DNA from: Verrucomicrobiales bacterium | GTDB lineage: Bacteria > Verrucomicrobiota > Verrucomicrobiia > Limisphaerales > UBA11358 | Length of the DNA: 64,000 nucleotides | NCBI GenBank assembly: GCA_028712475.1 | Contig: JAQTQB010000002.1 | Coordinates: forward strand, 496,001-560,000 | Direction: 5' to 3' | Part shown: positions 24,234 to 29,970 of the stretch, one piece after another | How positions within the stretch are numbered: the first letter of the stretch is position 1 | Layout of the letters: each line of letters starts with the position of its first letter | Translations under genes and position numbers: made by a program | The notes under the pieces: generated by a model | Told to the model about the DNA's origin: nothing | What the model saw: only the letters and a program-made list of their open reading frames with translations | The model's database searches: none

Positions 24234-24323
24234 TGGCGGAAGGGGTGGGATTTGAACCCACGGTAGGGTTGCCCCTACTCCTGATTTCGAGTCAGGTGCC
24301 TTTAACCACTCAGCCACCCTTCC
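24234..24323 (-). tRNA. tRNA-Ser(CGA)
   Basis: The reverse complement folds into a class II tRNA: acceptor GGAAGGG/CCCTTCC, D-arm GCTGAGTGGTTAAAGGC, anticodon stem CCTGA/TCAGG with loop CTCGAAA (anticodon CGA), a long variable arm (GTAGGGGCAACCCTAC) and T-arm GTGGG-TTCAAAT-CCCAC. The 3' CCA is encoded. The gene's 5' end faces the integrase. Confidence 0.96.
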
Positions 24324-24400: not shown

Positions 24401-25564
24401 ATGTGTATGAAGACCAATTCATCAGATAATACAGAACTGCGCTGGCAAAAAACGCCCGTGGCGAACCTAGTCCGCCACGTTCAATCAAGCAACTATTATG
24501 CGCGAATCCGCGTTCGCGGCAAGCTGATTTGGAAATCGCTCAAAACCGACCGCATAAGCGTAGCCAAGCTGCGTCTTGGCGATTTCCACAAGGAGGAACG
24601 GCAGCGCGCCGCCGCACAGACGGCAGTTGCGCGGGGAAAAATGACTTTGGCCGACGCCCTGCAAACCTACCGCGAGCGGCTAAACGGCGACCAGTCGCTC
24701 AAAGAACGAAGCAAAGCATACCGGGAGGAACGTATTACGGCTTTGCTAAAATCATGGCCCGATCTCAATCAGATGGATGTTGCCCAAATCTCCAAAGCCG
24801 ATGGCTTGGCTTGGGCCGCGCGATTTGGGAAAACCGCGAGTCCGTCGGCTTTCAATAATACCATCGGAACATTCAAGTTGGTTTTGGACATCGCCGTTGA
24901 AGCCGGTGCGCGTTACGACAATCCCGCCGTTCACATCAAACGGAAAAAAATCCGGCAGAAGCAATTGCAGCTTCCGAGTCAAAAACATTTTGTTGAATTG
25001 ATAAATACTATCAGGAACGGGGACGGCGGCTGGGCGGAACGGTGCGCCGATCTGGTGGAATTTCTGGCATATAGCGGATGCCGAAAAGGTGAGGCGGCGC
25101 GCGTCAACGGCCGGGACTGTGATTTTGAAAAAGGCGAAATCACAGTTTTGGGCGACCCCGCCACCGGAACCAAGAATTGGGAAATTCGCCGCGTCCCCAT
25201 GATTTCTGATATGCGCCGACTATTGCGTCGGCTGCAAAAGGAGCGCGGTGAAACTGAATTTTCAAACAAGCCAGTCATGCTCATCCACGAATGTCAGGGT
25301 GCCATTGATACGGCTTGTAAAAAACTCGGTATCGTCCGTATCACGCATCATGATTTGCGACACCTGTTCGCCACTCGTTGCATTGAATCCGGCGTTGATA
25401 TACCGACAGTCAGTCGCTGGCTCGGCCACAAGGATGGCGGCGCGCTGGCGATGAAAGTTTATGGACATCTGCGCGACAGTCATTCTACTGAGATGGCGCA
25501 GAAAGTTCGTTTTCACGAAAGTGAACCGACCACGAATGAGACAACCGCGAAATTGAAGGCGTAA
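24401..25564 (+). CDS. Tyrosine recombinase (phage-type integrase)
   Basis: 387 residues. An N-terminal SAM-like core-binding region (about 90-190) is followed by the catalytic domain. The catalytic set is visible: Arg in AYSGCRKGEAAR, HxxR in ITHHDLRHLFATRC, His in WLGHKDG and Tyr in KVYGHLRDSHS. It starts at 24401, with a second ATG at 24407. It lies 77 bases from tRNA-Ser and reads away from it, and is probably the integration enzyme of the element extending to about 29.9 kb. The stretch is visibly less GC-rich than the preceding operon. Confidence 0.92.
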   Translation: MCMKTNSSDNTELRWQKTPVANLVRHVQSSNYYARIRVRGKLIWKSLKTDRISVAKLRLGDFHKEERQRAAAQTAVARGKMTLADALQTYRERLNGDQSLKERSKAYREERITALLKSWPDLNQMDVAQISKADGLAWAARFGKTASPSAFNNTIGTFKLVLDIAVEAGARYDNPAVHIKRKKIRQKQLQLPSQKHFVELINTIRNGDGGWAERCADLVEFLAYSGCRKGEAARVNGRDCDFEKGEITVLGDPATGTKNWEIRRVPMISDMRRLLRRLQKERGETEFSNKPVMLIHECQGAIDTACKKLGIVRITHHDLRHLFATRCIESGVDIPTVSRWLGHKDGGALAMKVYGHLRDSHSTEMAQKVRFHESEPTTNETTAKLKA

Positions 25565-25569
25565 TCGTT

Positions 25570-25923
25570 TCAGCGCTGCTCTGCTTTTTCCTCAATTTCA
25601 ATGGAATTGACTGATGCTTCAGTTCCGGCCAACGACGTATATCGATCCAGTGCGGGCAGCAGTCGGACAAATTCAACGCAGCGGTCTTGCAGCGCCAGTC
25701 CCAATTCGCGCAGATTTTTGCCCGTGATCAGCACCGTGCGTTTCAGGAATGACAGCGTAAGCGTGTCCTGCCCTTCGCCGGATTCAAATTTGACGAGTTC
25801 CAAATGATGGCACGGCAGCAGGTAAAAACTGTTTGCATCCAGTTCCAGCCGTAAATTCTCCACCGGGGTGGGATTGTGGTTGACGCCCGTCCTGATCTTG
25901 TAACAGGGACTTTCAGTTCTCAT
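25570..25923 (-). CDS. Hypothetical protein coupled to the relaxase
   Basis: 117 residues with no recognised family. It is a mostly beta/alpha soluble protein (FYLLPCHHLELVKFESG, DTLTLSFLKRTVLITGKNL) with an acidic C-terminus. The start overlaps the relaxase stop by 4 bases, so the two are translated together and this is likely a transfer accessory or element-maintenance protein. It converges with the integrase gene, 5 bases apart. Confidence 0.6.
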   Translation of the reverse strand: MRTESPCYKIRTGVNHNPTPVENLRLELDANSFYLLPCHHLELVKFESGEGQDTLTLSFLKRTVLITGKNLRELGLALQDRCVEFVRLLPALDRYTSLAGTEASVNSIEIEEKAEQR

Positions 25924-28835
25924 ACTCTCATGCCTTTGCTTTTTTGTTGGGTTGGTTGCGGCGGAATTTCAACGCGCCGCCGCACGATTTGTGGTTTTGG
26001 AATCTCTACCGTCTCGGTTGTTTTGACAGGTTCAGTTTGCTTCTCGGTTTGGGATTGCCCCATCGCCGCATCCTGACGGAGCGCCTCGTCCCGCCGTTCG
26101 GTGAATTTGCGTTGTGCCTGTTGAACATTGAGGACGTAGGCAATATCGCGACCCCAAATCTTGGCCAGCTCCTGGACGGAACTGGCCATGCCCAGCGCCA
26201 GAGTCCGATGGCCGGAATGGGCGATGTTTTGCCGAAGCTGGATTTTATCCGCCGTGAAAATCTTCACGCCTTTGCGCCCGCGCGAAATCGTGACATACCA
26301 TTGCTGCTCATTCGTCGCGGCCTTGACCGCCGAATCCGAAAACAAAACGCAGTCCACTGTCTTGCCCTGCGCGGCGTATGACGTGACTGCGTAGCCGCGC
26401 ACGAACTGGCGGTAATTTTCCGGCAACTCCCGGCCATCATTCAGGGCGATGCGCCCGTCTTGATGAATTTCCTTCACCGTCACCAGTTCGCCATTGGCGA
26501 GCCGTCGTCCGTCCTGGCTTTGGGCATTGGCCTTGAGCTGCAATCTATCGCCGGTGGACAGGGAAAGTTCTTTTGGCTGGCAGACGGTGATTTTATCCAG
26601 TTCCTTGAACGGAACGGGTCGGATGCGATGGTCAGCCTCGATCAACAGATGCTTGTCGGTAATGCCGCATAGTTTTCCCGTGCTGCCGGATTTGAACCCG
26701 GCCGTCGGACGGTTGAACACTAAAATGGAGTCGGGCTGATAAAACCGCTTGTCGCGTTTTTGAGCGTCCGTTAAATCCTGCCGCTCCAAGGCCGTGACCG
26801 CCGTTTCAGCCTCACCGATTAACTTCTGTGCTTTCAGGCCGAGCCGGACTTGTTCATTGACCTTGTGAATTTCCGACCAGCTTTGTGACACGACCACGGT
26901 GGATTGCTGATTTTTGAAAAGTTCAAGAAAATGCTCGGTCAATTTCTGCTGTTGATCCGCCAGTGTGCAGGCGACCACCGCGCCCTGTTTGTCCAGCCGG
27001 TCGAAGGATGCACCGAGTTTGCCCTGCTGTGCGTCCTTCACGGCGAGTTTGTATTGTTCCAGCCAATGACGTTCCGCCTTCGTTTTTGCCGCTTTGGGAT
27101 TCTGACGGCGGATGTTCGTCAGTTCTGCGTAGCCCAGCCCCGAATACTGTTCAATGGCACGCAGGGCATCAGACGCCTCGACCGCTCCATGCTGATGCGT
27201 GTCACCGGACAGGATGACGCGGCCCTTGACTGTCTGGATCATCGAGAGCAGTTCCAGCATCTGTTGCCCGCCGATTTGTCCGGCTTCGTCCACCAGAACG
27301 ACCGTCCCGCGCGTCAGGAAATTTTGCTTGAGCAAGGCACTGACGGTTTGCGCGCCGGTAAACCCGTCCCGTTCCAGATCGGCGACCTGCTGGCGTTGTG
27401 GTGCGAGGACTTGGACGGTATGGCCGGCCTGAATGAGTCCGGCTTTGACTTCCCGCAATGTAAAACTTTTGCCCGTCCCTGCACCGCCCCGAAACAGGGT
27501 GACGAAATCACGCGAGGACAAAATATGTTCGACGGCCCTGCGTTGTTCATCATCCAGCGAACGGTTTGACGGCTGGTAATTGGCAGCGAGCGGTTCGTAT
27601 TGGTTCATCTGATGTTGAGCCAGCCGGACGATGTTAAATTCACGTTGAAAAACTTCGCGGGTGGTGATCTTGCCCTGAAATTGTTCGTCGCGGAGATACT
27701 CACGTCTCCGGGTAGCAGCTTTAATTTCCGGCAGTGATATGGTTTGACCGCGCGTATGTTCCAGAGCGTGACGCCAAACCTCATGCTCATGGACGACCGA
27801 CCGGCGTTCAAACAGATGTTTTTCCGCCCAACTGACCGCCTGTTCCGCTCTCATCTTCTGTGAAATCTCCGGTGAACGATGTTTGTCCAAGCGGCTGATT
27901 TGCCACCGTTCTTTCCATGACAGTTGCTGGTTCCAGATGGATTGCAGTTTGACGATGCCCACATCCTTGATCTTCCGCGCCCGTTCCTTGTGCGCGATGT
28001 TCGCCCGGATGACCTTGATGTTCTGACCGGCCTTGTCTGGTTCACGTTCCAAAAACTCCCTGGTCTTTTCGTCAATCTCCCGGTGACGCTTGGAAAATCG
28101 GTCAATCAATTCTTTGGACACACCGGCAATCTCAAAATCCCCACGCTGATTGTTTTCAACGCCATAGCCGAACCGCTGCAACGACCTGACCAGTTCGTGA
28201 TAATAGACGTTCCGAACGAACTTTTGTGCCGAGACCATTTCACAGGCTTCCAATGCCTTCCAGCGGCCTTCAACTGAATCCTTTGTGGCATTGAACAGGA
28301 TGCAATGGCTGTGCAAGTGCGGGTCTAATGCGCGGGACGTATCGTGCCGGAACACCGCGCCCACGACATTGCCCGTCACCCGATGCGAATTCTGATTCTG
28401 TTTCCGAACCCGTGTTGCGGCGTAGGCTTGCAGTTCACGCATGGCCGTCGTCACCGCCTCATCATGGGCCTCGATGATCCGCTGGTCATTGCCAACCAGT
28501 GCCGCGATGGATACCGATTTAGGCGGTGACAGCGTAAAATCATAGAACACCCGGCGATTGGCGGATTCATGCACGTTCCCTTCTTTATCCACACTGACAC
28601 GTTTAGAATTCAGCCGGGGTGTCAATTGCTCATCGGTTTGTGGATGAATGTTCCGGCACAGGTTCAGGAAATCCTTTTCCGTCGTCACCCCTGACAATCC
28701 CAATTTTGCCGCCCCTTCACCAATCCATTGACCGGAAACGCTGCGGCCTTCCATGTAGTAATCACCGACGCCCAGGTGTTCGCGAAAATACGACTCCGCA
28801 TTCCGCAAACTGTATTGGGCCTTCATCGTCAGCAT
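25920..28835 (-). CDS. MobF-family conjugative relaxase-helicase (TraA/TrwC-like)
   Basis: 971 residues. The relaxase domain (about 1-300) has a candidate catalytic tyrosine region GVGDYYMEG near the N-terminus and the three-His metal motif in HDTSRALDPHLHSHCILFN. The C-terminal half is a RecD2-type helicase with Walker A LFRGGAGTGKSF, VVLVDEAGQIGG, ILSGDTHQHGA and the UvrD-like motif VTSYAAQGKTVDCVLF. It nicks and unwinds DNA at oriT. No type IV secretion genes lie nearby, so the element would need helper machinery. Confidence 0.93.
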   Translation of the reverse strand: MLTMKAQYSLRNAESYFREHLGVGDYYMEGRSVSGQWIGEGAAKLGLSGVTTEKDFLNLCRNIHPQTDEQLTPRLNSKRVSVDKEGNVHESANRRVFYDFTLSPPKSVSIAALVGNDQRIIEAHDEAVTTAMRELQAYAATRVRKQNQNSHRVTGNVVGAVFRHDTSRALDPHLHSHCILFNATKDSVEGRWKALEACEMVSAQKFVRNVYYHELVRSLQRFGYGVENNQRGDFEIAGVSKELIDRFSKRHREIDEKTREFLEREPDKAGQNIKVIRANIAHKERARKIKDVGIVKLQSIWNQQLSWKERWQISRLDKHRSPEISQKMRAEQAVSWAEKHLFERRSVVHEHEVWRHALEHTRGQTISLPEIKAATRRREYLRDEQFQGKITTREVFQREFNIVRLAQHQMNQYEPLAANYQPSNRSLDDEQRRAVEHILSSRDFVTLFRGGAGTGKSFTLREVKAGLIQAGHTVQVLAPQRQQVADLERDGFTGAQTVSALLKQNFLTRGTVVLVDEAGQIGGQQMLELLSMIQTVKGRVILSGDTHQHGAVEASDALRAIEQYSGLGYAELTNIRRQNPKAAKTKAERHWLEQYKLAVKDAQQGKLGASFDRLDKQGAVVACTLADQQQKLTEHFLELFKNQQSTVVVSQSWSEIHKVNEQVRLGLKAQKLIGEAETAVTALERQDLTDAQKRDKRFYQPDSILVFNRPTAGFKSGSTGKLCGITDKHLLIEADHRIRPVPFKELDKITVCQPKELSLSTGDRLQLKANAQSQDGRRLANGELVTVKEIHQDGRIALNDGRELPENYRQFVRGYAVTSYAAQGKTVDCVLFSDSAVKAATNEQQWYVTISRGRKGVKIFTADKIQLRQNIAHSGHRTLALGMASSVQELAKIWGRDIAYVLNVQQAQRKFTERRDEALRQDAAMGQSQTEKQTEPVKTTETVEIPKPQIVRRRVEIPPQPTQQKSKGMRV

Positions 28836-28865
28836 GGTGGAACGCTAAACCATGTCCGGTGCAAT

Positions 28866-28920
28866 TCTGCGCCATCGGTAGCGCAAAATGGATGGATGGC
28901 AATGTTATCTGTTAATCGTG
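28866..28920. promoter_or_regulatory. Candidate oriT hairpin
   Basis: Inverted repeat TGCGC (28868-28872) / GCGCA (28881-28885) with an 8-base loop, followed by AAAATGGATGG. It lies between the divergent relaxase and accessory genes, the usual oriT position for MobF systems, and resembles in layout the IR-plus-nic arrangement of R388-like oriT. The site is proposed from layout, not from sequence identity. Confidence 0.4.
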
Positions 28921-28976
28921 TTAAAGATTGGACGCTGTTCTCCTTGCGAGTGCAAGGGGCGGCCGTAACAACAAAA

Positions 28977-29393
28977 ATGCCGGACAAAAATCAAATCGCA
29001 GTTGAATCAAAAATTATGAATGCAACCATCGTATCCGCCGAGGCGAAGGCCCGCCTGACCGAAGCCGTCAATCATTACACGCCGCCCGCGCCGGAAAAAT
29101 ACCGCGTGCTGAACGAAGTCAAAGAGTCCATCATCGCGTTGCGCGAGCGCAAAGCGTCGTATGAAACCATCCGCGCCATGCTGCACGAGAACGCCGGCAT
29201 CGAGGTGTCGCACCAGGCCGTAGCCCGCTACTGCCGCGAGGTGCTGGATACAGCCAAGCTAAAGAAACCACGCCATCCCAAGACGCCAGCGGCGGAACCG
29301 CCGGCATCCGCTCAAGCGGAATTAGCAGCGCGTCCGCCAAGCGGCCAGCTACGGCCACGCGGATCGCGCAGTGCCGATTCCAAGAATCTTTAG
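28977..29393 (+). CDS. Small basic transfer accessory protein with HTH-like core
   Basis: 138 residues from ATG 28977 (MPDKNQ); an internal ATG gives MNATIVS. The core RVLNEVKESIIALRERKASYETIRAML followed by GIEVSHQAVARYCREV looks like a helix-turn-helix of the TraK/MobC-like accessory type. The tail is Pro/Ala-rich and basic. It is divergent from the relaxase across the candidate oriT, suggesting relaxosome assembly or autoregulation. The family assignment is tentative. Confidence 0.6.
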   Translation: MPDKNQIAVESKIMNATIVSAEAKARLTEAVNHYTPPAPEKYRVLNEVKESIIALRERKASYETIRAMLHENAGIEVSHQAVARYCREVLDTAKLKKPRHPKTPAAEPPASAQAELAARPPSGQLRPRGSRSADSKNL

Positions 29394-29484: not shown

Positions 29485-29536
29485 GTCCGCGACCAATGCG
29501 TGTTACACAGCCCTGTAACACGCGCTCGTCGCGGAC
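29485..29536. repeat. 52-bp palindrome
   Basis: Outer arms GTCCGCGA (29485-29492) and TCGCGGAC (29529-29536) and inner arms GCGTGTTACA (29498-29507) and TGTAACACGC (29514-29523) are all perfect. They are separated by unpaired 5-base loops and a 6-base apex. There is no T-run, so a simple terminator is unlikely. Confidence 0.85.
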
Positions 29537-29562
29537 AGACAGTGGTGGAGCGCATCTGCGCT

Positions 29563-29617
29563 GCGCTTCCGTTTGCGGCACGGCGACGGACGTTCGCCGA
29601 ACCGCAAACCGAAGCGC
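29563..29617. repeat. 55-bp imperfect palindrome
   Basis: Arms GCGCTTCCGTTTGCGG (29563-29578) and CCGCAAACCGAAGCGC (29602-29617) match at 15 of 16 positions. An inner GGCGA/TCGCC stem (29582-29586, 29594-29598) adds pairing. It lies 26 bases after the first palindrome. Confidence 0.82.
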
Positions 29618-29762
29618 GCAACAAAAGTCATCTGCTGATGGGTGAAAAAATCATGGAAAATACAACCGTCAGCGCACCCGCTGCGTTCAGGGCGCGTGAA
29701 GTATGGCAACTCATCCGGGGTGAGTCGCCAAGAAACAGCCTCGTGGCAAAAAAACAGGCGAT

Positions 29763-29970
29763 GAGGGCAGCGGCGGCGGATGGCGCACACAGGTATCGGG
29801 CAAGTCACTTACGATGGCGTTTTACTCCGGGCGGCTGGTGGTCGAGCCGGAAATGGAAAACCCCATGCTGGTCATTGTTACAGAACGAAATGCCGTGATG
29901 CCAGCTATTCAGCACGTTCGCCTGCTGCCATGAATGGCTCCGGCAAAAGTCAATGCAAGCCTCATATCGC
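29763..29970 (+). pseudogene. Decayed fragment of a type I restriction R subunit (hsdR)
   Basis: The frame from 29781 translates to [20 protein letters not shown] and then [17 protein letters not shown]. This matches the HsdR motor-domain stretch around Walker A ([16 protein letters not shown]... MENPTLVVLTDRN in typical members). The Walker A is degraded (QVSGKS). After a frameshift the match resumes at 29908 with [21 protein letters not shown], equivalent to the FGTFxRCxxLLRQxPVQAESR segment. No start, upstream nuclease domain or downstream helicase remains. Confidence 0.75.

Follow-up and report, generated by a model that had tools for sequence, protein, structure and literature searches.

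The two palindromes located at positions 29485–29617 of the 64-kb stretch of DNA analysed here (the window) form one copy of an order-restricted, covarying two-hairpin element which apparently has not been described previously and which we will call the H unit. This unit recurs in the order of the window's genome (Verrucomicrobia subdivision 3) at places where unrelated genes are joined, and it looks like a gene-shuffling site, not like the transfer origin of the relaxase encoded next to it. Its copies share a conserved, covarying structure with asymmetric strands and abrupt ends; their flanks are modular, and two junctions fall at an end box. The reading that we favor, with a probability of roughly 0.4, is a folded single-strand recombination or cassette site which would resemble an integron attC site in its working without being one.

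Both inverted repeats of the preliminary description were confirmed, one at 29485–29536 (52 nt) and the other at 29563–29617 (55 nt), with a spacing of 26 nt. Their arms had been called long and perfect. However, they are imperfect: the first hairpin, H1, contains a conserved internal loop CAA/CTC (20 of 23 positions match) and the second, H3, a C-C mismatch. A T-run is absent and no convincing gene spans the palindromes, as had been described. The internal loop, the mismatch and the missing T-run rule out a perfect palindrome or a terminator. A third, short hairpin is located between the two palindromes (Table 1). When the whole window was scanned for inverted repeats (arms of 23 nt, at least 18 matches, loop of 3–12 nt), the two palindromes were the sole ones of such size, and the same scan of five shuffled windows gave zero matches. 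The calculated folding energy of the 161-nt region was −53.6 kcal/mol for DNA (z −7.55) and −82.6 for RNA (z −7.17), and in both cases none of 200 shuffled sequences folded equally well.

Table 1. Features of the window in the region of the H unit.
Feature	Position	Strand	Remarks
tRNA-Ser(CGA), integration target region	24234..24323	-	element on the 5' side of the tRNA
Tyrosine recombinase (integrase) of the element	24401..25564	+	Pfam Phage_integrase 2.5e-19
Small conserved protein of the mobilisation module	25570..25923	-	
MobF (TrwC-type) relaxase-helicase	25920..28835	-	Pfam TrwC 3e-83; NCBIfam MobF
Candidate oriT of the relaxase, divergent intergenic region	28836..28976	.	hairpin CCTTGC-GAGT-GCAAGG (28942-28957), flanking GGACGC
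Small protein, weakly resembling DNA-binding parts of transposases	28977..29393	+	ends about 90 nt before H1
Whole H unit	29485..29615	- (putative folded strand)	
H1, first large hairpin, 52 nt	29485..29536	-	parsed and compared in 37 copies
H1 boxes GACCAATGC and GCGCTCGTC	29491..29499 and 29522..29530		on either side of the internal loop
Linker hairpin AGCGC-ATCT-GCGCT	29549..29562	-	consensus in relatives AACGC-AGTC-GCGTT
H3, second large hairpin	29565..29615	-	basal GCTTC/GAAGC stem, conserved C.C mismatch, covarying inner stem
Remnant of cargo, similar to an internal part of a type I restriction R-subunit (hsdR-like) gene	29725..29961	+	

The module in the window resembles an integrative mobilisable element with decayed cargo. 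The palindromes had been placed at the end of a mobile element, but they are not terminal. The type I restriction-modification (hsdR-like) gene remnant lies downstream and indicates the side of the H unit on which cargo has been swapped; it is followed by a regulator of the GntR/LacI type. A right end of the element could not be located within the window. A duplicated att site of the tRNA in the window was rejected, as no repeat of the tRNA end longer than 10 bp was found near H. The first 40 nt of tRNA-Ser(CGA) recur as lone copies in the genus, among them one in the window's genome (G000:C16:8353-8392), which suggests integrases that duplicate the 5' half of the tRNA instead of the usual 3' half. 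The integrase of the window has a 92% identical copy at another locus (L017), where it immediately precedes an H unit. The small protein encoded upstream of H1 is likely a mobilisation accessory protein. Besides the weak transposase-type similarity it gave one PDB match, which is probably due to chance. The nearest named relatives are MAGs of uncultured Verrucomicrobia subdivision 3.

The H unit is a dispersed unit of approximately 130–260 nt which consists of H1, a short linker hairpin and H3. DNA searches revealed a second, diverged copy in the window's genome (C17:3054-3139) and copies in 8 of the 59 genomes searched, the window's genome counted. Using a covariance model built from 11 copies, units were detected in 16 of 49 genomes of the genus and also in several other genera of the order. 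Units are 80–90% identical within a genus. For a second genus (G184, G146, G117 and G166) the unit was found as a sharp-ended repeat of about 220 nt, and tandem or paired units occur. The window's genome was the sole match in a sample of 388 genomes of the phylum, mostly from other orders. Plasmid records, phage records and viral contigs contained no match to the H unit, and no description of it was found in the open-access literature.

The structure was parsed in 37 copies. On the top strand H1 is made up of the box GACCAACGC, a variable apex (15–72 nt past the counted stem) and the box GCGCTCGTC. The linker forms a small hairpin around ACGC/GCGT, and H3 comprises the box GCTTCCGTC, again a variable apex, and the box GACCGAAGC. 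Both pairs of ends, GACCAACGC...GCGCTCGTC and GCTTCCGTC...GACCGAAGC, are conserved in 33–37 copies. Compensatory changes were observed in the inner stems (TTTGCGG/CCGCAAA, TCAGCGG/CCGCTGA, TCTTGAG/CTCAAGA, CCTGCGG/CCGCAGG and others). For 22 dereplicated copies 94.7% of the stem cells were paired, compared to 80.7 ± 1.0% after shuffling, and 73 cells had changed on both sides, compared to 22.9 ± 3.6 (maximum 33) after shuffling; this count allowed wobble pairs on the complementary strand. The first 11 copies agree with this result (90.8% paired, 0 of 500 shuffles as high).

Mismatches on the top strand were A.C in 32 cases and G.T in 6, so that the complement retains wobble pairs. The corresponding p value of about 2 × 10−5 assumes independent cells, which they are not. 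The complement folded better as RNA in 69 of 70 hairpins; a shuffle control revealed that this bias is partly due to composition, while an excess persisted and the bottom strand was more significant in 55 of 70. On the minus strand the internal loop of H1 closes to A-T (A-U in RNA), G.T (G.U) and one G.G mismatch, and the conserved C.C mismatch of H3 becomes G.G. Thus, a G.G mismatch is present in the lower stem of each hairpin. The asymmetries of mismatches and energies indicate that the minus strand, the complement of the strand given here, is probably the folding strand. It is the complement of the ORF which usually precedes the unit. Such strand asymmetry argues for a structure whose active form is single-stranded, be it RNA or DNA.

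An RNA would have to be a structured non-coding RNA of the minus strand, for example a regulatory or defence-related one, which was spread by mobile elements and for which the junctions described below are a by-product of mobility. The strong covariation, the wobble pairs kept on one strand, the very stable RNA folds, the long variable loop regions and the intergenic position are all consistent with this explanation, and a covarying multi-hairpin structure is also found in Rfam RNA families of mobile elements. Unlike these, the H unit gave no match to any Rfam covariance model even at E values up to 1, which excludes a known RNA family, and it has no conserved promoter or terminator. Conservation between copies stops at the bases of the hairpins and both flanks are unrelated. 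Consequently, no common promoter or terminator travels with the unit. Moreover, modularity of the flanks is not expected of an RNA gene. We therefore consider an RNA unlikely.

The behaviour of the flanks was followed in 43 pairs of complete units sharing a flank. Only the left flank was shared by 23 pairs, only the right one by 15, and both by 5. Two species (L158/L161) have an identical left flank and an H unit which is about 97% identical up to CCAACCGAAGC, with nothing in common beyond. L156 and L165 also combine a common left flank with different right ones. The right-flank families R1, R2 and R3 start directly after GAAGC behind differing left flanks, and two copies are cut on the left exactly at (G)AACCAACACG. 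Within the window's genus the left side (accessory gene and H1) is common to six or more loci that differ in their cargo, and subtypes of H1 and H3 assort independently. Several pairs join at AACCG/AAGC; other joins are located at the 5' end or outside the unit. The 3' end box of H3 in the window, AACCGAAGC at 29607–29615, corresponds to the position of the junctions in relatives.

A lone end box CAACCGA(A/G)GC was observed at a near-empty ortholog and at an insertion junction. The near-empty ortholog (G117:C529) is devoid of the 422-nt, unit-containing segment of G184:C48, and its joint TCAACCG/AAGC equals the H3 end box; the overlap of 6 bp at this joint could also result from a micro-homology deletion. 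At the second locus (G008:C18) a MORN-repeat gene and the H unit that usually accompanies it are kept apart by an insert. The box CCAACCGAGGC is found at this junction, which lies just past the stop codon and reads CCCAACCGAGGC, an end box with one mismatch. Most of these genomes are MAGs, and any single junction might therefore reflect a faulty assembly.

The flanks could also have been changed by transposition of the unit itself if it were a non-autonomous mobile palindromic repeat, i.e., an IS200/IS605-type PATE, a REP-like repeat or a one-ended rolling-circle element. Several copies per genome, units of about 220 nt, composites of H+R3 (about 525 nt) and H+R2 (about 690 nt), sharp left ends, hairpins at both ends and two units in tandem fit this explanation. 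Like REP/BIME, the repeats of RAYTs (PMC3733652) and IS200/IS605-derived PATEs, H units are dispersed intergenic palindromes which are often found downstream of genes and sometimes in tandem. In contrast to them, an H unit has 130–260 nt with two elaborate hairpins and lacks the GTAG tag, its copies are few and diverged, not many and near-identical, and flanks are exchanged on either side. The REP super-families of PMC3733652 are stems of 20–40 bp tagged with GTAG/CGTC, and the H unit is not among them. A Y1/HUH transposase was absent from the 25 commonest neighbour families of 109 flanking proteins. Furthermore, nearly every copy has retained the 3' end box with its AAGC, which would have to be target DNA, and the combination of one left flank and H with different right flanks is unexpected for an inserted repeat. 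A mobile repeat of this kind thus appears improbable.

Alternatively, the junctions may have been made by homologous recombination between dispersed repeats, or by breakage and repair stimulated by the hairpins, and the unit would have another conserved role. The identity of the units within a genus would agree with this. L165 and the pair L023/L024 (left flank 99% identical, H units and right flanks different) look like exchanges beside or within H, and some breaks are located 25–110 nt outside the unit or involve another H unit (L023/L024, L208/L217). These breaks, the inconstant recombinase (see below) and the use of metagenome assemblies mean that ordinary repeat recombination could account for part of the data. 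However, the switches occur repeatedly at the same end boxes, and the identity of the flanks drops from 97–100% to nothing within a few bases. As an explanation of the junctions in general, repeat recombination is very unlikely.

The neighbourhood of the units connects them with mobile elements. Integrases and TrwC relaxases were the commonest neighbours among the 109 flanking proteins, with tyrosine integrases as the top family. Approximately 27 units of the genus were considered, and 7 of them are located less than 3 kb from a relaxase of the window's family, while about 0.1 were expected. The preliminary description of a functional structured element linked to the biology of mobile elements is supported by these associations. 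Its pairing with the MobF relaxase holds as an enrichment; that the unit is exclusive to the relaxase or its transfer origin is not supported. Units were present near some relaxases of the family (4 of 30 fetched loci within 1.5 kb, all four among the closest homologs), but no plasmid record matched, and most relaxases 50–65% identical to that of the window have no unit within 1.5 kb. Two incomplete MAGs (G025 and G027) contain units and no detectable relaxase of the family; palindromes in genomes lacking the element had been named beforehand as the finding that would refute the preliminary interpretation. The contig with the second site of the window's genome showed no relaxase within its initial 12 kb, units of other genera are located beside ordinary genes, and many units have neither a relaxase nor an integrase nearby. 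A recombinase consistently adjacent to the units was not found, and none was seen beside the copies of the second genus. MobF relaxases are unusually abundant in the genus, with up to 10–12 matching pieces per genome (G008, G013 and G031).

The order of relaxase, accessory gene and H is stereotyped in at least five loci, and more than 10 loci show an ORF followed by H with a gap within about 50 nt. Units often trail a co-directional ORF and divide mobility genes from defence cargo, which includes hipBA, AbiE, a YhcG-type nuclease, DUF4062, MmeI and GmrSD. A MORN-repeat gene (about 278 aa) immediately precedes the H unit at four loci (L079, L080, L081 and L088), which belong to two families of the order. 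At L082 an insert encoding a protein with a PEP-CTERM-like tail parts the MORN gene from the H unit.

From its anatomy, the divergent region of about 140 bp directly upstream of the relaxase gene (28836–28976) is a likelier oriT than the H unit. It contains a hairpin CCTTGY....RCAAGG with a compensatory pair and flanking GGACGC, which are kept in homologous modules, and three more distant relaxases without H units have a comparable upstream hairpin with GGCGT. Although the enrichment near relaxases, the stereotyped gene order, the presence of hairpins near a TrwC-family relaxase in DNA which turns single-stranded, and the ability of the R388 TrwC to catalyse recombination between oriT copies (PMC3264647), which would connect nicking with the junctions, speak for the H unit as oriT or recombination target of the neighbouring MobF relaxase, this is highly improbable, since a constant association with the cognate relaxase or element was not observed, the upstream region fits better, and two long hairpins are far larger than and unlike the compact R388 oriT with its in vivo minimum of 17 bp (PMC3264647).

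Like an attC site, the H unit is an imperfect single-strand hairpin structure whose structured strand is complementary to the preceding ORF. Its place is behind an ORF, and the cargo that it separates is exchangeable and includes toxin-antitoxin and defence genes. The core boxes of attC sites are RYYYAAC (R'') and GTTRRRY (R'). The H unit does not possess such ends; its boxes are GACCAACGC and AACCGAAGC. Where an attC site has a single hairpin, the H unit has two large ones and a linker hairpin. Typical features of attC sites are a single-strand hairpin, strand bias, unpaired bases low in the stem and a variable terminal structure (PMC2727003), and the H unit shares them, having conserved unpaired bases low in the stem and a variable top. 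Matches to IntI were obtained in 18 genomes, where the arrays look canonical. Scanning 13 IntI regions with the H-unit model gave a best match with an E value of 0.35 and no adjoining H unit. The differing core boxes, and genuine IntI genes in the same genomes without adjoining H units, exclude identity with integron attC sites. Two integron integrase genes scoring above the curated cut-off are present in the window's genome itself (G000:C14:37022-37957 and G000:C9:340127-340921; L187 and L188), accompanied by canonical-looking attC arrays; the same applies to many relatives, often at contig ends. At L197 (G059:C145) several repeats of a short palindrome, GGATCAACGAACCGCCGGTTCGTTGATCC, precede intI.

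For the H unit as a folded single-strand site, we infer an enzymatic, site-specific exchange in which DNA and not RNA acts. The minus strand would become single-stranded during conjugative transfer or replication and would fold into two long hairpins that both keep the basal stem and the G.G mismatch but vary freely at the top. A recombinase may then read this shape together with the end boxes (GACCAACGC and AACCGAAGC) and exchange whatever lies past the hairpins. By this means a gene and its trailing H unit could be joined to new neighbours. Since TrwC relaxases can recombine oriT copies, the relaxase is one candidate for this enzyme; the resident tyrosine integrase is the other.

Whether H units form a second integron-like, IntI/attC-independent gene-capture system, with a single-stranded site of two hairpins that transfers accessory and defence genes among the mobile islands of one verrucomicrobial order, is a more far-reaching proposal which we regard as rather doubtful. 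Folded single-strand sites for gene shuffling are known mainly from integrons. Even as an RNA or a small transposon, the H unit would be a strongly covarying element absent from Rfam. If the proposal is true, a second type of site on conjugative islands with defence cargo, in a bacterial order that has been little studied, would mean that such gene swapping arose more than once, and the H unit would provide a concrete marker for finding and testing the responsible enzyme.
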